Source: a virus. Taken from it: a stretch of 31,995 nt of DNA. Positions 5,855 to 28,058 of the stretch are shown in pieces (the stretch's first letter is position 1; every line of letters starts with the position of its first letter). The notes below the pieces were generated by a model. That model worked only from the letters and a program-made list of their open reading frames with translations. It was not told where the DNA came from and searched no databases. A program made the translations under genes and the position numbers. The DNA lies in IMG/VR virus record IMGVR_UViG_3300032278_000067, positions 1 to 31,995 of that record, one strand, 5' to 3'.

Positions 5855-7360
5855 GTGGCACAGTCGGTTTCCATACCTGTTCCGATCGGTGGCTGGGATA
5901 CTCGACAGGCCTTGTCGATGATGGATCCGACACATGCTGTTATTTTGGATAATTGGTTTCCTGGAACAGCAAAGTTAACACTCAGGAAAGGAAATACATC
6001 TTATGCCACCGGAATGGCTGGTTCTATTGAATCTCTAATCCCTTATGTTCCATTAACTGGAGCAGGTAAATTATTTGCCGCAAATGGTGGTAATATTTTT
6101 GATATTTCTTCTTCTGGCGCTGTGGGTTCTGCAGTTGTATCGGGTATGACTAATGCACGTTGGCAACACGTTAATATAGGCACAGCAGCAGGTCAGTTTC
6201 TGCTTGCTTTTAATGGTGCAGATGTTCCAAGAACATATAATGGATCATCATGGTCTACTTTTGGAGGAACTGGCCCAACGGTTGCGAATTTGATATGGTG
6301 CAATCTCCACCAACGTCGTTTATGGTTTGGTGAAGAGGATAGTTTATCGGCTTGGTATTTAGCGACCAATGCTATTACAGGAACTGCAACAGAATTCCCA
6401 TTACATGGCATTGCCAGAAAGGGTGGTTTCCTCATGGCAATGGGGACATGGACTAGGGATTCAGGTGCGGGTATGGATGATGTTGCTGTCTTTTTAACAT
6501 CTGAAGGTGAAGCAATTATTTATGTTGGAACTGATCCATCTGCAGCAGCAACATGGGAATTGATTGGCGTCTTTCGAATTGGCAAGCCCATTGGTCGACG
6601 ATGCATGGTTCAAGGTGGTAGCGATCTTATTCTCGTAACTCAAGATGGTTTTGTTCCGTTATCCGGAATCCTAAGCACTGATCGTAGCCAAGCTCGTCTT
6701 GTGGCTCTTTCTGATCAAATCAATGAAGCTGTCAATGTTGCTGTCACTAGATATGGATCAGTGTATGGGTGGCAGCCAATCGTTTATGCACAAGGAACGA
6801 TGCTCATTTTTAATATCCCTAAATCAGCAACTGAGTCTATTCAATATATTTTTAATACTATTACTGGAGCACCATGTAGATTTACAGGAATTAATGCTGT
6901 CTGTTTTGGACCACTTGAAGATGATATGTATTGGGGCGGGAATGATGGGGTTGTTTATAAATTTGATGATGGAACAAGCGATAATGGTACGGAGATAGAA
7001 GCAGATGCTGTTCCTGCATTTTCATATTTTGGTTTACCAGATTTATCTAAGTTATTTAAATTAGCTGAACCAATATTTGAAAGTGATGGTAATCCAAATC
7101 CAGCAGTCGATGTGAATACAGATTTTCAAGTTGCAGCACCTACAGGTCTTCCTGGACCTTCATCTGTTGGATCAGCAATTTGGGGATCTTCTACATGGGG
7201 TTCTGGAACTTGGGGTTCAGAGGGACAAATTTATCGTGGTTGGCGTGGAGTGAGGGGAGTCGGGCGAGCAGGTTCAGTGAGGATAAGGTTAAGTTCTTCA
7301 GTCGCTAGACCATCATGGATTTCTACAAATTTAACCTTCGTGAATGGTGGCCAGATCTGA
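5855..7360 (+). CDS. Tail hub / DNA-stabilisation-like structural protein
   Basis: 501 residues. GTG start immediately after the upstream TAA, with GGAGG 10 bases before. The N-terminus PVPIGGWDTRQALSMMDPT, then AVILDNWFPG and LRKGNTSYATGM, is the signature of a widespread phage structural family (NTRDPxxxMxPxxAVxLDNWFP, LRxGxxxHATG). The repeated short beta segments (WGSSTWGSGTWGSEG near 440) fit a beta-propeller-like protein. In P22 the protein after the adaptor (gp10) is a tail hub of this general shape, so I suggest an equivalent role; direct homology to gp10 is not claimed. The stop overlaps the next start (TGATG). Confidence 0.68.
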   Translation: MAQSVSIPVPIGGWDTRQALSMMDPTHAVILDNWFPGTAKLTLRKGNTSYATGMAGSIESLIPYVPLTGAGKLFAANGGNIFDISSSGAVGSAVVSGMTNARWQHVNIGTAAGQFLLAFNGADVPRTYNGSSWSTFGGTGPTVANLIWCNLHQRRLWFGEEDSLSAWYLATNAITGTATEFPLHGIARKGGFLMAMGTWTRDSGAGMDDVAVFLTSEGEAIIYVGTDPSAAATWELIGVFRIGKPIGRRCMVQGGSDLILVTQDGFVPLSGILSTDRSQARLVALSDQINEAVNVAVTRYGSVYGWQPIVYAQGTMLIFNIPKSATESIQYIFNTITGAPCRFTGINAVCFGPLEDDMYWGGNDGVVYKFDDGTSDNGTEIEADAVPAFSYFGLPDLSKLFKLAEPIFESDGNPNPAVDVNTDFQVAAPTGLPGPSSVGSAIWGSSTWGSGTWGSEGQIYRGWRGVRGVGRAGSVRIRLSSSVARPSWISTNLTFVNGGQI

Positions 7361-12675: not shown

Positions 12676-13634
12676 GTGGGTTTCTCTCAGGACGCACTAG
12701 TCTTACCAGCGTAGCTGTTAGTGATCTTGCTGATGGAACAGATGGCCAGTTGATTACATGGGCTGCGGATGCAACTGCTGCTACTGTCGCTGTTGGAACA
12801 GCAACGCACGTACTCACTTCAAATGGTGCAGGAGCAGCGCCAACATTTGCTACTGCTGCGGGAACTGATATACAAACATTTACATCTAGTGGAACATGGA
12901 CGAAAGCATCAGGTAAGACTCTTGCTCTTGTAGAAGGATGGGGTGGTGGTGGTTCTGGTAGCAGAGTGTCTAGTGGTATTGGTGGAGCCGGTGGTGGTGG
13001 CGGAACATACTCTTGGGTTGTTCTTAATATAAGTGATCTAGGCTCAACAGAAACTGTGACGATTGGAGCGGGCGGTACAGCTATTACGGGTGATTCAACA
13101 AATGGAAATGCAGGCGGTAATACTACGCTAGGCTCGAAATTCACTATTTACGGCGGCGGAGGCGGAGCTTCGGAAACGAGCGGCGGCGGCGGCGGAGGCG
13201 GGGGTTCACCTGTTTCAGTAGGCGGCACATTAAGTGGGAATGTAGGAGCCGATGCTGGAACTTTTGGTGGTGCAGGTGGTAGTATTAATAACGCTGGTGC
13301 AGCCAACTGGTTTGGAGGAGGAGGTGGCGGTAAAGAAGGAGCCGGTGGTCAAGCTGGAATTGGCGGCGGCGGCGGCGGAGGTGGGTCAAACGGAACCGAT
13401 GCTGGAGTCGGTGGCGCATCTTTGTATGGCGGTGGCGGAGGCGGCGGCGGAGAAGATAGCACAGGAGTAGCTGGTGGTGTAAGTGTCCACGGCGGAAATG
13501 GCGGAGCAGGAGGTATAGGAGATGGTACAGCGGGTATTGCAGGAACAGCACCCGGTGGGGCTGGAGGCGGTGGAGGAGGTTCTTCCAACTCAGGAGCAGG
13601 TGCAGCTGGCCAACTAAGAGTTACATCGTGGTAG
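12672..13634 (+). CDS. Tail fibre with poly-glycine-rich tip domain
   Basis: 320 residues. The N-terminal 60 residues carry a fibre module (LADGTDGQLITWAADA, then HVLTSNGAGAAPTFATA). TDIQTFTSSGTWTKASGKTL then opens a glycine-rich domain that fills the rest, with many GGGGG runs separated by Ser, Asn or Ala. Glycine-rich fibre domains can fold as a sandwich of poly-Gly II helices whose loops bind the receptor, as in T-even-like adhesins. The C-terminal GGGGGGSSNSGAGAAGQLRVTSW is a typical cap. The matching DNA is GGC/GGT/GGA-rich and locally GC-rich, a coding effect rather than a separate repeat. Confidence 0.85.
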   Translation: MSGFLSGRTSLTSVAVSDLADGTDGQLITWAADATAATVAVGTATHVLTSNGAGAAPTFATAAGTDIQTFTSSGTWTKASGKTLALVEGWGGGGSGSRVSSGIGGAGGGGGTYSWVVLNISDLGSTETVTIGAGGTAITGDSTNGNAGGNTTLGSKFTIYGGGGGASETSGGGGGGGGSPVSVGGTLSGNVGADAGTFGGAGGSINNAGAANWFGGGGGGKEGAGGQAGIGGGGGGGGSNGTDAGVGGASLYGGGGGGGGEDSTGVAGGVSVHGGNGGAGGIGDGTAGIAGTAPGGAGGGGGGSSNSGAGAAGQLRVTSW

Positions 13635-15299: not shown

Positions 15300-15649
15300 A
15301 ATATCAGGTTAGTGACAGCACCGTATTCCGCTTTAGGCTCATACTATTGGTTGTCATTGTCTTGACAATTATCTTTATAATATCAGAGGCTGCAAATAGT
15401 CAGACAAGAAATTGTACCAATCGAGATATTATGGTAGAAATGTTGAATAAAACACACGGCGAAACTGTTGCTATGGTCGCACACAGCAATATGACTAAAT
15501 CAATGATAGAGTTCCTTGGAAGATCAGATGGGACTACTTGGACGATTATTATTACTTATAATAACGATATAGCATGTATCACTGCTGCTGGTGATTGGTG
15601 GATGATTCCCAAGAAAACTGATGCAACAGAACCAATAAATAGCAAATAA
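15296..15649 (+). CDS. Exported (periplasmic) protein of unknown function
   Basis: 117 residues from a GTG overlapping the previous TGA. Residues about 12-32 are a strong hydrophobic segment (LILLVVIVLTIIFII) followed by SEAANSQ, consistent with a signal anchor or signal peptide. The mature part has C..RDIMVEMLNKTHGETVAM, then TTWTIIITYNNDIACITAAG with DWW. This looks like a family of small secreted proteins with two Cys and a 'GTWTii.t...G..Cl.a.Ge.w' motif that I associate with Alphaproteobacteria and their phages. The two Cys could form a disulphide. Function unknown. Confidence 0.66.
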   Translation: MKYQVSDSTVFRFRLILLVVIVLTIIFIISEAANSQTRNCTNRDIMVEMLNKTHGETVAMVAHSNMTKSMIEFLGRSDGTTWTIIITYNNDIACITAAGDWWMIPKKTDATEPINSK

Positions 15650-19788: not shown

Positions 19789-20772
19789 TCAGGCAGCGAG
19801 ATCAACAAGAATTGATTCGGTCTCTTGCTTCCGACGAGCATTGTCGCCAACCCAAGAACGCCACATGCGCGAGCCTTGCTCACGACCTGCAACGTGATCG
19901 GCCCAATGGGTTACGCCATTGAGGACGCCCCAGCCTGTGCCTGGAACTGCACCAGGACCTTCATTGATGGAGTGTATGATCTCCTGAAGAGTCTTTGGTT
20001 GCTTTTCGATCTGCATGATTTCCTTCATGAGATCATCGTCTGCAGCAACTGCCTGATGAAACACTGGCACGAGAACTTTCTTGACTGTGTCCTCGAGATT
20101 GATCTTGAGCTTAGCGATCAGCTTGGATCTTGCCTCACATTCACGCAGTTGCTCAACCGCAGCTTCAACATGTTCCTTGGCTGCAGCAGTGTTAAACTCT
20201 GACAGATGATTCTGACTGTAGTGGATGGTGCTGGATGAATTGGCCAGAGCCATCGTATTAGCACAAACTACGCGAACAGTCGTTGTGCGAACGGTGATTG
20301 CCTTGCCGACCTCATGCGGAGATGTGATCAGAAGGTAACCGTTGACTGTGTCGCCTTTACGAACTTCGTAGCTGTGCTTCAACTTGGCCAATCCCCAAAC
20401 AACTCTGCCACCGCGCAATGCGCCAGCAGTTTCCAAAGTGGCTCCACCAGCCTTGACGTAGTCACGCATGAATCCGAGCATGTCGGAATTCTGCAGTGGC
20501 TTCCAAGACTTGCCAGTCAGAGTCATGACCTTGTTATCAAGATCACGCACAAGAGCAAAGCGATCAGGAACCTTGGAATAGGACGAATCACCCTTCTTGC
20601 TGCTCATGGGAAGAGGTGGCAATTCAAAGTACAGCTGCCTGAGAACCACTTGCCAATCAAGGCCAGCGGCCACGAGCATTTCCTCAACTGGGATTTTAGG
20701 GTCGACATTGACACCCAAACCATGCCAAGGAACTGCATGCGCATACGCCATCGTTTCTACTTCATGGGACAT
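19789..20772 (-). CDS. DUF932 / TIGR03299-type phage-plasmid protein
   Basis: 327 residues with GGAGGACAAT before the ATG. The opening MSHEVETMAYAHAVPWHGLG, then GLDWQVVLRQLYF, then FALVRDLDNKVMTLTGKSWKPLQN, ITSPHEVGKAITVRTTTVRV with VCANTMALA, and a late GTGWGVLNGVTHWADHVAG segment followed by WVGDNARRKQ, are the hallmarks of the DUF932 family (phage/plasmid-like protein TIGR03299). Full-length for the family. Biochemical role unsettled; such proteins are common in plasmids and phages. It is the last and largest gene of the ribozyme operon, behind hammerhead 1, and is followed by the terminator. Confidence 0.9.
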   Translation of the reverse strand: MSHEVETMAYAHAVPWHGLGVNVDPKIPVEEMLVAAGLDWQVVLRQLYFELPPLPMSSKKGDSSYSKVPDRFALVRDLDNKVMTLTGKSWKPLQNSDMLGFMRDYVKAGGATLETAGALRGGRVVWGLAKLKHSYEVRKGDTVNGYLLITSPHEVGKAITVRTTTVRVVCANTMALANSSSTIHYSQNHLSEFNTAAAKEHVEAAVEQLRECEARSKLIAKLKINLEDTVKKVLVPVFHQAVAADDDLMKEIMQIEKQPKTLQEIIHSINEGPGAVPGTGWGVLNGVTHWADHVAGREQGSRMWRSWVGDNARRKQETESILVDLAA

Positions 20773-20819
20773 ATTGTCCTCCTGTGTAATGCTAGCTCTC
20801 CGATAAAGAGTCTAAATTT

Positions 20820-20887
20820 GGCCTGTCTCATCAGTGCAGGTAGGCCGTATCCTGCAGACACCCAGTTCTCAGGCTGGGCGTTTCGAC
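20820..20887 (-). ncRNA. Type II hammerhead ribozyme 1
   Basis: Minus-strand order: GUC (stem II), GAAA (20884-20881), stem III CGCCCAG with CUGGGUG (one G-U pair), UC, cleavage expected between 20857 and 20856, stem I UGCAGG with CCUGCA, CUGAUGA (20834-20828), GAC closing stem II. The loop of stem I contains GGCCU, which is complementary to AGGCC just after stem II. It separates the 61-aa gene, whose TAG supplies its first base, from the DUF932 gene. Confidence 0.92.
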
Positions 20888-21072
20888 TATGGTTGGTTAT
20901 CAATGAACACACGCACAGCTTCCATCTCTGTGCGGTCTATGATGTTGTAGCCAAATGCAATCTCATAAAAGTCGAGAACTTGCTTCATGCTTCCCCAGAA
21001 GTCAATTGACTGACCTACCAGGAACGCACCTTTCTCCATTTGGCTATTGAAGTAAACTTCATGCGCAACCAC
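20887..21072 (-). CDS. Hypothetical small early protein (61 aa)
   Basis: 61 residues from GTG at 21072. This start is chosen because AAGGAGGTGA, nearly a full anti-Shine-Dalgarno match, lies eight bases upstream; a longer frame to 21126 would overlap the preceding gene and bury this site. Sequence VAHEVYFNSQMEKGAFLVGQ, then SIDFWGSMKQVLDFYEIAFG; mixed alpha/beta, acidic. No family recognised. Second gene of the unit between hammerheads 2 and 1; its TAG is the first base triplet before hammerhead 1. Confidence 0.66.
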   Translation of the reverse strand: MVAHEVYFNSQMEKGAFLVGQSIDFWGSMKQVLDFYEIAFGYNIIDRTEMEAVRVFIDNQP

Positions 21073-21091
21073 CGGAATCACCTCCTTCCGA

Positions 21092-21271
21092 TCAAGAAAT
21101 TGTGACTGTATAATTATCCATCTCACAGAGGTCGTTGACGTGTTCTTCCGTCAGCAACGCTCCGATTTTGAATCGGATACAGTCGATGGCTTTATCAACC
21201 CTGAATACATGCTTGGGGTCTTCAGGCGAGTTGCAGTCAGGGTTGAATACTTGCGTTAAGAATAGCTTCAT
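21092..21271 (-). CDS. Hypothetical small early protein (59 aa)
   Basis: 59 residues from ATG at 21271 with TGGAGG directly upstream; a longer frame would run back into the ribozyme and is not credible. Sequence MKLFLTQVFNPDCNSPEDPK, then AIDCIRFKIGALLTEEHVND. Mixed strand and helix, acidic, two Cys. Not recognised. It is the first gene after hammerhead 2, whose pseudoknot strand ends next to this gene's ribosome site. Confidence 0.68.
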   Translation of the reverse strand: MKLFLTQVFNPDCNSPEDPKHVFRVDKAIDCIRFKIGALLTEEHVNDLCEMDNYTVTIS

Positions 21272-21285
21272 CGTAGTTCCTCCAG

Positions 21286-21354
21286 AGATGATCTGTCTCA
21301 TCAGCGCAGGTAGATCATCTCCTGCGGACGCCCACAACTTGTGGGCGTTTCGAC
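21286..21354 (-). ncRNA. Type II hammerhead ribozyme 2
   Basis: GUC, GAAA (21351-21348), stem III formed by CGCCCACAA and UUGUGGGCG, UC with cleavage expected between 21327 and 21326, stem I CGCAGG with CCUGCG, CUGAUGA (21304-21298), GAC. Stem I loop AGAUGAUCU is complementary over nine bases to AGAUCAUCU following stem II, which runs to within two bases of the GGAGG of the next gene. Confidence 0.94.
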
Positions 21355-21530
21355 TAATAGGTTATCACCCTTGCTTGCTCAGCGACAACCGTCTTGCCTT
21401 CTGGCGTCTTTATCTTGACGACGCCACGTGCATGGCTCATGACCAAGCCAGTAACTGGCTTACCTATTGGCTCGTTTTCCCTTCCTAAGCGCTGATACGA
21501 ACATGGGGTATTTCTTTTGATGCGTGTCAT
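21354..21530 (-). CDS. Hypothetical small basic protein (58 aa)
   Basis: 58 residues: MTRIKRNTPCSYQRLGRENE, then PIGKPVTGLVMSHARGVVKI, then KTPEGKTVVAEQARVITY. Strong ribosome site TTGGAGG eight bases before the ATG at 21530. It fills the gap between the 95-aa gene and hammerhead 2, with its TAG touching the ribozyme, which matches the packing of the other genes. The sequence is basic at the N-terminus and beta-rich at the C-terminus, KOW/SH3-like in feel, but I do not assign a family. Confidence 0.75.
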   Translation of the reverse strand: MTRIKRNTPCSYQRLGRENEPIGKPVTGLVMSHARGVVKIKTPEGKTVVAEQARVITY

Positions 21531-21544
21531 CGGTTGTCCTCCAA

Positions 21545-21832
21545 TTAATAACGGTAGGGCTGAATTATGGCTTTGAGCAAGTCAGGATTCATATCCGGAA
21601 ACTCTCGCAGCCAGCGGCGCAACGACGCCTTGGTGGCGAAAATGGCCTTTTGGCCTTCTCTGGTAGGAACTTCGATCTCAAGCAAATTTAACTTTGCCTC
21701 AAGTCGATTTACATTGATTTGGGCACATTCACGTCTTGACTGTGAAGCAGCCATTGCCTCAGTGGTCGGGGATCGAAGAGGGACACCTCGTAATTGGCGT
21801 CGGCTTGCCTCAATGATATCTTTTTTAGTCAT
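21545..21832 (-). CDS. Hypothetical helical protein (95 aa)
   Basis: 95 residues with GGAG before the ATG, just after hammerhead 3. The N-terminal part MTKKDIIEASRRQLRGVPLR is basic. A long charged helix follows (RRECAQINVNRLEAKLNLLE), then a compact end with LRRWLREFPDMNPDLLKAII. Could form a coiled-coil dimer. No family recognised. Followed after 14 bases by the 58-aa gene with no ribozyme between, so these two share one processed unit. Confidence 0.72.
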   Translation of the reverse strand: MTKKDIIEASRRQLRGVPLRSPTTEAMAASQSRRECAQINVNRLEAKLNLLEIEVPTREGQKAIFATKASLRRWLREFPDMNPDLLKAIIQPYRY

Positions 21833-21844
21833 TTTGATTTCTCC

Positions 21845-21908
21845 ATGATCTGTTTCATCAGTGCTGGGAGATCATTCCCAACAGACGCCCGGCCATGGGC
21901 GTTTCAAC
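21845..21908 (-). ncRNA. Type II hammerhead ribozyme 3
   Basis: GUU, GAAA (21905-21902), stem III CGCCC with GGGCG (loop AUGGCC), UC with cleavage expected between 21884 and 21883, stem I UGUUGGG with CCCAGCA (one U-G), CUGAUGA (21861-21855), AAC. Stem II is GUU/AAC here and GUC/GAC in copies 1 and 2, a compensatory change. Loop AUGAUCU is complementary to AGAUCAU after stem II; GGAG of the next gene follows at once. Confidence 0.94.
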
Positions 21909-21913
21909 TAATA

Positions 21914-22087
21914 TCACAACACCCAGTGGCGATAAGGTTTTGTGAATGGAGACCAAAGCACGTAACAAACTTCCATCACCCCAGGGTGACCAGAGTGCTG
22001 ATTGCTGCACAGCGTGCAAAGCACAATGCGAGGAAGGCGAAATCCTAGCACTCGCATTATTTTTATTTCACGATCAAAATAGTACAT
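21914..22087 (-). CDS. Hypothetical Cys-containing small protein (57 aa)
   Basis: 57 residues from ATG at 22087, with AAGGTGA as a moderate ribosome site. Sequence MYYFDREIKIMRVLGFRLPR, then IVLCTLCSNQHSGHPGVMEV, then CYVLWSPFTKPYRHWVL. A CxxC followed by His residues and a third Cys hints at metal binding. The stop lies six bases before hammerhead 3, and the gene fills an otherwise empty gap, as do its neighbours. Coding status is likely but not certain. Confidence 0.55.
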   Translation of the reverse strand: MYYFDREIKIMRVLGFRLPRIVLCTLCSNQHSGHPGVMEVCYVLWSPFTKPYRHWVL

Positions 22088-22105
22088 ACCAGATTCACCT
22101 TCATC

Positions 22106-22369
22106 TTACCAAATGGGCCGAGTTACTGTGATTTCAGTTCCACCGTCCTGGATTCTGTAGGTTTGCCAGGATGCGGCCCGATCTTGCTCAAGCTTGAGCT
22201 GCTCTTCAGCATCAGTTTTGAGCGGGAATGACCAGACCAATGACCAATTGTCATCAGGATCAATTCCATGAATGCGCAGAGCAGCTTTATGATCCTCTGG
22301 CAATTCCTCATGCCGCATGATGCGGAAACGGTGAACCAATTCCTCATATGTGTTTTCATAAACGGCCAT
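22106..22369 (-). CDS. Hypothetical early protein (87 aa)
   Basis: 87 residues, TGGAGGAAAAACG before the ATG. Sequence MAVYENTYEELVHRFRIMRH, then GIDPDDNWSLVWSFPLKTDA, then an acidic helix and a terminal strand GGTEITVTRPIW. Mixed alpha/beta, acidic. No family recognised. First gene after hammerhead 4; the 57-aa gene follows after 18 bases without a ribozyme. Confidence 0.74.
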   Translation of the reverse strand: MAVYENTYEELVHRFRIMRHEELPEDHKAALRIHGIDPDDNWSLVWSFPLKTDAEEQLKLEQDRAASWQTYRIQDGGTEITVTRPIW

Positions 22370-22385
22370 CGTTTTTCCTCCAGTT

Positions 22386-22449
22386 GGTTGGTTGGATCAT
22401 CAGTGACTGGGGACCACCCAGCCAGACGCCCACTCATGGGCGTTTCACC
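22386..22449 (-). ncRNA. Type II hammerhead ribozyme 4 (weak stem II)
   Basis: GGU, GAAA (22446-22443), stem III CGCCCA with UGGGCG, UC with cleavage expected between 22425 and 22424, stem I UGGCUGGG with CCCAGUCA (one G-U), CUGAUGA (22403-22397), UCC. The base pair of stem II next to the core is a U-U mismatch, leaving two G-C pairs. Loop UGGUC shares UGGU/ACCA complementarity with the AACCAACC tract that precedes the ribosome site. Confidence 0.86.
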
Positions 22450-22453
22450 TTGT

Positions 22454-22981
22454 TCAAATTTTGAAGAAGCGACCAAGATCAGAAGTTGGTTTTCTGAATG
22501 TGCTCATTGCAGGTTTGCCTTTTCCGTGAACACGGTAGATGCAGATGACCCGACGAGCACGACCTTTTGTGTGGTCATGATTTTCGCCATCAACAACACC
22601 CAGCACATGCCCACTAGTGAAGAGCAAGTAGGTGCAACCGTCACGCCACACCTTGTTGAAACGCTCCATGTGGTGCGTGGTCACTGATTTGAGATTTTTG
22701 TGATTGCCAGGGTATTGCCTGATGAACTCATCAGGATGAATCAGCGTGACGTCAAAACCAGCCTGGACGATTGCATCAACACTTTGTTGATGGTGGGTGC
22801 CACGGCGGTTTTGACGGCCAGTTGCCTTCAGGGCAGCGTGCGCATCATCATAGCTTTGATCACAGACAACTGCTTGAGCGACGACTGAGCAATCACCACG
22901 CTCATTCATCACATTGCCAGAACTGTGCAGATTTTCAAATTTCTCAGACTTGGTTGCATACCTTGAAGTGATTCTGGCCAT
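22454..22981 (-). CDS. Papain-like cysteine peptidase-fold protein
   Basis: 175 residues with GGAGGAAACCG before the ATG. MNERGDCSVVAQAVVCDQSY at 25-44 carries a likely nucleophile Cys31 at the start of a helix. HAALKATGRQNRRGTHHQ follows, and FTSGHVLGVVDGENHDH at 121-137 carries His125 and Asp131. The order Cys-helix, GRxxRxGT and GHxxxVxDGxxxD is the plan of C39/papain-like proteins seen in phages and bacteria. The true activity, peptidase or other transferase, is not known. As an early gene it could modify host proteins. It lies alone between hammerheads 5 and 4. Confidence 0.72.
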   Translation of the reverse strand: MARITSRYATKSEKFENLHSSGNVMNERGDCSVVAQAVVCDQSYDDAHAALKATGRQNRRGTHHQQSVDAIVQAGFDVTLIHPDEFIRQYPGNHKNLKSVTTHHMERFNKVWRDGCTYLLFTSGHVLGVVDGENHDHTKGRARRVICIYRVHGKGKPAMSTFRKPTSDLGRFFKI

Positions 22982-22995
22982 CGGTTTCCTCCAGT

Positions 22996-23055
22996 TGGTT
23001 AGCTCATCAGTGATCAGGAACCACCCTGACCAGACGCCCAGTTGGGCGTTTCACC
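22996..23055 (-). ncRNA. Type II hammerhead ribozyme 5
   Basis: GGU, GAAA (23052-23049), stem III CGCCC with GGGCG, UC with cleavage expected between 23033 and 23032, stem I UGGUCAGG with CCUGAUCA (one G-U), CUGAUGA (23010-23004), GCU closing stem II by U-G, G-C, G-U. Loop UGGUU is complementary to AACCA right after stem II; CUGGAGG of the next gene follows. Confidence 0.92.
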
Positions 23056-23056
23056 T

Positions 23057-23290
23057 TCAGACCACCATGAAGCCAGCGTGGGCGTAACTGCCCGGATTGC
23101 TGCCACCGTTTGAATTGAAAAGAACGACCGGAGCGAACCGGACGATTTCAAGAAACGGATCATCACGAGTCACCACGACCGGAACCATCATGAACCGATC
23201 ATCAGGATGGAGAACTTTGGAAATCGCCTTCACGGCATTTTCCTCAGTGGCGTAGGTTTTGGCGGACTCAGCAATTTTGACTTGTTTCAT
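23057..23290 (-). CDS. Hypothetical early protein (77 aa)
   Basis: 77 residues from ATG at 23290, with CTGGAGGAAACTGAAA upstream; a longer frame would run into hammerhead 6. Sequence MKQVKIAESAKTYATEENAV, then KAISKVLHPDDRFMMVPVVV, then FLEIVRFAPVVLFNSNGGSN. Alpha/beta, no catalytic motif seen, family not recognised. First gene of the ribozyme operon; its TGA is two bases before the hammerhead 5 core. Confidence 0.74.
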   Translation of the reverse strand: MKQVKIAESAKTYATEENAVKAISKVLHPDDRFMMVPVVVTRDDPFLEIVRFAPVVLFNSNGGSNPGSYAHAGFMVV

Positions 23291-23307
23291 TTTCAGTTTC
23301 CTCCAGG

Positions 23308-23392
23308 TGGGCATTCTCATCAGTGCCGGCAGCCCAGTGCGCGACAGACGCTCGCCACTCCCTTAAAGAAAGGAGTCACGAGCGTTTCAAAT
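23308..23392 (-). ncRNA. Type II hammerhead ribozyme 6 (extended stem III)
   Basis: AUUU, GAAA (23388-23385), long stem III closed by CGCUCG with CGAGCG, UC with cleavage expected between 23347 and 23346, stem I UGUCG with CGGCA plus GCA/UGC above a bulged C, CUGAUGA (23323-23317), GAAU. Stem II AUUU/GAAU has four pairs. Loop UGGGC is complementary to GCCCA after stem II. It lies in the 5' leader, before the first gene. Confidence 0.92.
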
Positions 23393-23550
23393 TTTTAGGT
23401 TTTCTCCTTGACCCCAGAGCCGCGCGGCAACAGCGCCTTCGAGCCCGGTAACGCGAGAACTGAGTTGGGGAGTGGTCTGCCCTCATAGTGCCCGGCGGCC
23501 GAATCTCGGATCCGACTGGAGTTTTGGTCTATATGACCCCTCCCATAATT
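23393..23550 (-). other. GC-rich untranslated leader of the ribozyme operon
   Basis: About 150 bases transcribed from P1 before hammerhead 6. I find no gene here. The stretch is much richer in G and C than its surroundings and holds complementary pieces (on the minus strand CUCCCCA and UGGGG, and GCGC and GGCGC blocks), so it is probably folded. With hammerhead 6 active, it would be cut off as a short separate RNA. Confidence 0.55.
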
Positions 23551-27118: not shown

Positions 27119-27615
27119 TGGAGCTCCAAGAATTATTCAAGCTGGGAATGGATCGAGATATAGATCCAGTGGCCAATGATCCAAAGACAGGCCAAGCCAT
27201 TAATGTTGGCGCAGGAAATAAAGAAATTGAAGGTGCAACTCCATTCGACTATCCTGAGTGGGATGCCGATGCTGAGTCATTGCCTCTTGTTGATGATAGC
27301 GTGAGTTGTATTCATGCCTATCATTTTCTTGAGCACGTTCAGAACCCAGTTCGGGTCCTGCAAGATTTTCAACGAGTCCTGATAGTGGGTGGTGTTGTCA
27401 ATATTGTGGTGCCCTATTATACATCCCAAATGGCAGCACATGATCTTGACCACAAGCATGTGTTTTGTGAGGAAACTTGGCGTGTGCTTTTTGGCAATCC
27501 ATATTACAACAAAAACAAGATTGAATGGAAGTTTCATGTTGGTCTTAATGTTATCATGGGTGTCAAAGAACGAAATCTCGCTCTCGTTACCCAACTTATG
27601 AAGATGCCATTCTGA
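27118..27615 (+). CDS. SAM-dependent methyltransferase (class I, Methyltransf_11-like)
   Basis: 165 residues, TGATG overlap with thyX. INVGAGN at 28-34 is motif I, DYPEWDADAESLPLVDDSV supplies the acidic loop and 'lP..d.s.d', and YHFLEHVQNPVRVLQDFQRV followed by GGVVNIVVPY is the 'ahvLEHv.dp...l.e..RVLkpGG...i.vP' block. Substrate not evident. It is shorter than bacterial relatives because it starts directly at motif I. The neighbourhood (ThyX, phosphatase, polymerase) suggests nucleotide, DNA or RNA modification, but a glycan target cannot be excluded. Confidence 0.82.
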   Translation: MELQELFKLGMDRDIDPVANDPKTGQAINVGAGNKEIEGATPFDYPEWDADAESLPLVDDSVSCIHAYHFLEHVQNPVRVLQDFQRVLIVGGVVNIVVPYYTSQMAAHDLDHKHVFCEETWRVLFGNPYYNKNKIEWKFHVGLNVIMGVKERNLALVTQLMKMPF

Positions 27616-28058
27616 TGAAACAGGCAATTGTGATTGATTTGGATGGCACACTTTGTGATTCCAAACACCGTGAGCACTTCGCCAGAAATCGAGAGTGGAA
27701 TAAATTCCACAGCAAGCTTATTGAGGATGAGCCTAATCCTGATGTCTGTTGGTTTGTGCAGCATTTGGTCAAGCATGCTAATGACATTTCAATTATTGCT
27801 TTGACAGGTCGCAATGAAGCATTTCGTAACCTTACGTATGACTGGCTTCAAAAATATAATTTTCCATTCGATCAAGTGATTATGCGACCAGAGGGTGATT
27901 TTAGACCAGATCACGTTTTAAAGATCGAGATGCTGAAGGCGCATTGTCACCAAACTGGTCTTCAGATTCTTTTCGTTCTTGATGATAGGGACAAGGTCGT
28001 GGAGGAATGGCGCAATTCGGGTTACAAATGTTGGCAAGTCAGGCCAGGAGGCTATTGA
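27615..28058 (+). CDS. HAD-type polynucleotide 3'-phosphatase (PNKP-like)
   Basis: 147 residues, TGATG overlap. VIDLDGTLCD has Asp8 and Asp10, the DxD of HAD enzymes. IIALTGRNEAFRNLTYDWLQ carries Thr64 and Arg66, then MRPEGDFRPDHVLK with Lys103, and LFVLDDRDKVVEEWRNSGY with Asp123/Asp124. The block order TGR..RxxTxxWL, MRxxGDxRxDxxxK and DDRxxVVxxWRxxGxxCxQVxxGxY is that of the phosphatase half of phage T4 polynucleotide kinase. The kinase half is absent. Such enzymes remove 3'-phosphate and, in T4, 2',3'-cyclic phosphate from RNA or DNA ends. Confidence 0.86.
   Translation: MKQAIVIDLDGTLCDSKHREHFARNREWNKFHSKLIEDEPNPDVCWFVQHLVKHANDISIIALTGRNEAFRNLTYDWLQKYNFPFDQVIMRPEGDFRPDHVLKIEMLKAHCHQTGLQILFVLDDRDKVVEEWRNSGYKCWQVRPGGY

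Follow-up and report, generated by a model that had tools for sequence, protein, structure and literature searches.

A 2011 study reported type II hammerhead ribozymes grouped around the genes of prophages and suggested that they process transcripts into single-gene mRNAs (PMC3088659). It tested tandem arrangements from three bacteria, among them a triple that surrounds ardA. Cleavage by the tandem prophage hammerheads was seen in vitro and, for the cloned Agrobacterium tumefaciens triple, in E. coli; spliced or circular products were sought and none detected (PMC3088659). What hammerheads do in bacteria and phages is a stated open question (PMC6155905, PMC10085705). Here, we analyze IMG/VR virus record IMGVR_UViG_3300032278_000067, whose 31,995 bases are referred to throughout as the window, and in which six type II hammerheads lie in the gaps of a run of phage genes. 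A related principle is used in the ribozyme insulators or self-cleaving spacers of synthetic operons, where an intergenic ribozyme cuts the message and standardizes its ends; those insulators are man-made, whereas the ribozymes in the window are natural and repeated.

A covariance-model scan of the whole window, carried out on both strands with 4227 Rfam families, returned exactly six matches to RF02276 (Hammerhead_II, gathering score of 37 bits), every one of them a minus-strand match within 20817-23392. No other ribozyme was found in the window with these families, and the record holds no further RF02276 copy. The initial annotation of this DNA had proposed six minus-strand type II hammerheads, and the scan bears this out, with five copies at or above the gathering score and copy F below it. 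The 5'-hydroxyl bases that had been predicted agree to the base with the cut sites that we parsed, and placement between genes, in a single direction, holds for all six. The copies and their predicted cut sites are as follows:

20817..20888, minus strand: hammerhead A, RF02276 38.2 bits; cut after 20857, 5'-OH at 20856; precedes the DUF932 gene
21287..21355, minus strand: hammerhead B, RF02276 48.8 bits; 5'-OH at 21326
21844..21909, minus strand: hammerhead C, RF02276 48.8 bits; 5'-OH at 21883
22386..22450, minus strand: hammerhead D, RF02276 44.0 bits; 5'-OH at 22424
22994..23056, minus strand: hammerhead E, RF02276 44.3 bits; 5'-OH at 23032
23306..23392, minus strand: hammerhead F, RF02276 30.3 bits; 5'-OH at 23346; operon leader, first of the array

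Matches to further Rfam families (sR5, suhB and mir) fall below cut-off, and the suhB match is the terminator hairpin that follows the DUF932 gene.

Parsed copy by copy, all six ribozymes retain an intact CUGAUGA and GAAA core with GUC at the cleavage site; each carries C3, U4, G5, A6, N7, G8 and A9, G12, A13 and A14, the A15.1-U16.1 pair, and H17. As the initial annotation had it, the full core occurs in type II order in every copy, with loops closing stems I and III and stem II left open. Stem III is 6-9 bp, being long in F, and stem I is 5-9 bp. The accompanying claim that the stem II helices are kept stands for A and B, where the pair at 10.1-11.1 is G-C; this pair is A-U in C and G.U in E and F, and the helix given for D as GGU/UCC is incomplete, with U.U at this position. 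The final base of the upstream stop codon is part of stem II in A and B. In a collection of 527 type II hammerheads, for which no stem II was required in scoring, 521 have C at position 11.1 and 6 have T; four of these six are copies C-F of the window. On the basis of these letters, copies A and B appear canonical throughout, C-F may cut more slowly, and D may cut poorly. The 2011 study allowed no mispair at 10.1-11.1 when candidates were filtered for testing, and copy D would not have passed that filter (PMC3088659). A separate C-T class, 125 of the 527, has C at 11.1 and a T immediately following CUGAUGA; where individual examples were read, the G-C pairs resume one base on, which suggests that a one-base insertion between A9 and stem II is a common variant.

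Absent from the initial annotation is the pseudoknot between loop I and the 3' tail, a known feature of type II hammerheads (PMC3088659). In copies A, B, C, E and F, it comprises 5-8 contiguous pairs; in D, a short UGGU/ACCA is found by eye. The pseudoknot letters vary by copy (ATGATCT/AGATCAT, GGCCT/AGGCC, TGGTT/AACCA and TGGGC/GCCCA). Complementarity of at least 5 bp between loop I and the tail is seen in 54 of 142 ribozymes, as compared with 15 when the tails are shuffled. In copy B, the long pseudoknot strands pair in the minimum-energy fold at the expense of stem I, and a competing hairpin fold is possible.

The window thus shares with the RF02276 class the core, the type II topology, the pseudoknot and the phage setting, with five of six copies over the cut-off; it differs in the U at 11.1 of four copies, the U.U at 10.1-11.1 of one, and the sixth copy that falls short. 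As in the prophage clusters of Agrobacterium tumefaciens (the triple around ardA), Azorhizobium caulinodans and Clostridium scindens, the hammerheads flank genes or small blocks (PMC3088659); unlike those clusters, there are six of them in 2.6 kb. Clustered phage hammerheads are recognized by several copies flanking genes or short blocks on the same strand, and in this interval six do so among nine genes. The remark in the initial annotation that no described operon with six was known to its author is too strong if read as a claim of absence, considering that clusters were published in 2011 and that arrays of 6-11 are present in public phage contigs; what stands is that no published count of at least six type II hammerheads in one array was found in the literature searched.

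The contigs come from four pattern scans, three of viral contigs and one of genomes, that differed in their stem III sequence and each yielded at least 120 stretches. From the stretches listed, seventy-eight whole contigs, chosen because they matched (a second group for multiple matches), were searched with RF02276, and 13 of them contain 6-11 matches. Because arrays of this size recur, the window array is not exceptional, and it is a further case of an already known element and of a known phage clustering. In 130 kb of array regions, each Rfam match to an E value of 0.5 is Hammerhead_II, on one strand per region. The largest arrays include the 11 RF02276 matches of Janus, a cultured Streptomyces phage, and the 10-11 matches of each of its relatives Triumph, Sentinel and TrvxScott; the annotations of the four phages do not mark the ribozymes. 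All 42 ribozymes in these phages have the orientation of the genes, and almost all fall into annotated gaps. Like the window, the Streptomyces phages carry them among small genes; unlike the window, the arrays are larger, the genes are unrelated, and the stops are usually farther from the core. At orthologous junctions, both sides of a stem change and still pair while the core is kept; at one junction, for example, such paired change is seen in 19 of the 73 comparisons of pairs. This compensatory change is direct evidence of selection for the fold.

Back-to-back type II pairs about 68 nt apart are also present, at 15390-15522 of Sentinel (L597), 13227-13361 of TrvxScott (L598), and 8121-8256 of contig G107 (L581). 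Such pairs would release a very short RNA, and Sentinel gp073 and TrvxScott gp80, which they overlap, are probably annotation errors.

In our reading, to which we assign a probability of about 0.7, the six hammerheads would cut one phage transcript in its gene gaps, co-transcriptionally, into six units whose ends are ribozyme halves. The cuts would yield coding segments of ~314, 608, 541, 557 and 470 nt and a DUF932 message. Each upstream message would end 24-30 nt past its stop with a 2',3'-cyclic phosphate, its 3' end formed by the GC-rich hairpin of stem III, and each downstream message would begin with a 5'-hydroxyl on the stem I hairpin and the loop/tail pseudoknot, shortly before the Shine-Dalgarno site. 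The coordinates show this phasing directly, with 24-30 nt from stop to cut and 51-56 nt from cut to start, or 84 nt for DUF932. Neighboring genes would likely be uncoupled as a result, and the structured ends would likely be poor targets for 5'-monophosphate-dependent and 3'-to-5' nucleases. We infer cleavage in the cell, mRNA stabilization or end protection, and an effect on protein level. Support for the cutting reading comes from the covariance-model matches with complete cores and predicted cut sites, the same-direction placement in gaps, the variable pseudoknots, the covariation, the recurring junction layout, the precedent in PMC3088659, and the terminator after DUF932. The genes and the terminator, in the direction of transcription, are as follows:

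23057..23290, minus strand: open reading frame (ORF) of 77 aa, no family match
22454..22981, minus strand: ORF of 175 aa, phrog_3754 (function not known)
22106..22369, minus strand: ORF of 87 aa, no family match
21914..22087, minus strand: ORF of 57 aa, in the same unit as 22106-22369 with no ribozyme between; ends 8 nt before the GAAA of C
21545..21832, minus strand: ORF of 95 aa, no family match above cut-off
21354..21530, minus strand: ORF of 58 aa with its own GGAGG; no ribozyme before it
21092..21271, minus strand: ORF of 59 aa
20887..21072, minus strand: ORF of 61 aa, GTG start and GGAGG; no ribozyme before it
19789..20772, minus strand: DUF932/phrog_1221 gene, the final gene of the punctuated segment
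19741..19762, minus strand: intrinsic-terminator-like hairpin with a T tract, 3' of the DUF932 gene

The junction layout includes a regular distance from the stop codon. In the window, TAG ends 2 nt before GAAA at A and at B, and TGA ends 4 nt before it at E; at C and D, the stop lies 7-8 nt away. Of 432 ribozymes preceded by an open frame of at least 60 codons, 237 (55%) have an upstream stop that ends 2-4 nt ahead of GAAA, as compared with 101 of 2002 decoys (5%), which are GAAAC sites outside ribozymes. This docking is seen in 64%, 51% and 57% of three viral stem III classes and is weaker, 36%, in genomes; the upstream genes of the first set form 129 clusters from 136 and are nearly all unrelated. 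A stop placed inside the core, as the TGA of UGAAA, was rejected as a test, with T preceding GAAA in 4 of 475 ribozymes. The docking regularity is apparently unreported: we found no mention of it in the literature searched, which misses most subscription papers, and the main text of the 2011 study mentions neither stop codons nor Shine-Dalgarno sites (PMC3088659). A broader proposal is that dense arrays of 6-11 are a recurrent phage strategy in which ribozymes docked on stops couple termination to self-cleavage and give each gene standard mRNA ends; we regard it as tentative and on balance doubtful, and the coupling of cleavage to translation is offered as a hypothesis only.

Several observations weigh against the cutting reading. 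Copy F scores under the gathering threshold, with an E value of 0.02 window-wide. Judging from their letters, it is uncertain that all six copies are active, because D has the U.U mismatch adjoining the core and C-F have U at 11.1. The junctions at 22106/22087, 21545/21530 and 21092/21072 have gaps of ~15-20 nt without a ribozyme; therefore, some units contain two genes. The initial annotation had placed one hammerhead before nearly every segment, and this stands as to the six ribozymes and has to be relaxed for the nine minus-strand genes through DUF932 with their three ribozyme-free junctions. Docking is lineage-dependent, with the stop 2-4 nt before GAAA in just 4 of 41 Streptomyces-phage ribozymes, and it may simply reflect compact genomes, which would be a sufficient explanation. 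Finally, there is no associated RNA-repair gene, as evidenced by a polynucleotide kinase (PNK)-phosphatase-like family carried by 2 of 17 phages with ribozymes and by 4 of 31 controls.

The stop codons raise the question of whether the array is a ribosome-gated switch, in which ribosomes terminating upstream keep the ribozyme unfolded, so that cutting occurs only at low upstream translation and the array tunes stoichiometry. From its footprint size, a ribosome halted at the stop codon would overlie both stem II and the core, and the excess of docked stops over decoys, shared by A, B and E, is in keeping with such gating. The Streptomyces-phage ribozymes and copies C and D depart from this spacing, however, and a compact genome would produce the same distances, so we consider gating unlikely. 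The letters at 11.1 bear on a different possibility, namely that A and B work and C-F are relics. While the rare U in C-F, the mismatch in D and the low score of F would fit decay, relics should lose core bases too, and all other core bases, stems I and III, and the pseudoknots are intact; decay of most copies is therefore improbable.

A further alternative holds that the ribozymes are mainly shared stretches for recombinational swapping of accessory genes, with cleavage secondary. Two relatives (L126 and L127) have the helicase, DUF932 and divergent genes in common with the window, and have 0.7-1.6 kb without a ribozyme where the window has 3.2 kb; this shorter interval suggests that the small genes with their ribozymes were inserted as an accessory block. 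Some copies within one phage are alike (D and E, 81%), and the flanking genes are unrelated, which favors modular boundaries. Mean identity within the window array is, however, 0.68, as compared with 0.66 (sd 0.03) between arrays, which is too low for efficient homologous recombination, and the compensatory change at orthologous junctions would not be needed for a recombination site. We regard this alternative as quite improbable. Least credible by far is excision followed by circularization. In its favor, the 5'-hydroxyl and 2',3'-cyclic-phosphate ends of released segments are RtcB-type substrates, and back-to-back pairs exist in Sentinel, TrvxScott and G107; against it, no ligase is seen among the genes scanned, and the 2011 study detected no spliced or circular product. 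Returning to intergenic cutting, arrays of up to eleven, the repeated stop-ribozyme-Shine-Dalgarno layout and the compensatory change argue that it is the selected function, and the cultured Streptomyces phages with dense arrays make the open question of hammerhead function testable.

The label of phage in the initial annotation is borne out by the portal, P22-like coat and amidase genes that the window encodes. The same virus is represented by another record (L600, IMGVR_UViG_3300032820_000155), which is 99.96-100% identical to the window and bridges both of its ends, adding ~6.2 kb. The whole genome is likely ~38 kb, and six copies are likely its total, because the added sequence holds no RF02276 match. 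With megablast, no phage record resembling the window was found. RF02276 is absent from the 40 searched contigs with a shared DUF932 gene and the 50 with a shared coat protein; therefore, the array could not be followed into close relatives. Among the small genes of the array, defense-gene models gave no match, and a pattern search found no relative of the 175-aa ORF at 22454-22981. Promoter-like sites in the window are at chance level, and sequence does not reveal timing; the "early" expression of the operon proposed in the initial annotation is no more than plausible. The leader at 23393-23540 (minus strand), 5' of the first ribozyme, is GC-rich in a genome of 45% GC, lacks a convincing gene, and has no structure beyond that of shuffles (z 0.12).

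At 27615-28058 on the plus strand, the window encodes a stand-alone relative of the 3'-phosphatase domain of T4 polynucleotide kinase (phrog_415, E 9e-39; PDB Pnkp1 4xrp, E 4e-13), an enzyme type whose substrates include 2',3'-cyclic phosphate ends. A pairing of arrays with an RNA-end-healing enzyme was considered and rejected, since this family is no commoner in ribozyme-bearing phages on the counts given above. At 6077-7101 of IMG/VR contig G114 (L580), another phage with an array (11 matches), a hammerhead likewise lies directly before a DUF932 gene that is 34% identical to that of the window, and this contig also encodes a helicase related to the one in the window.

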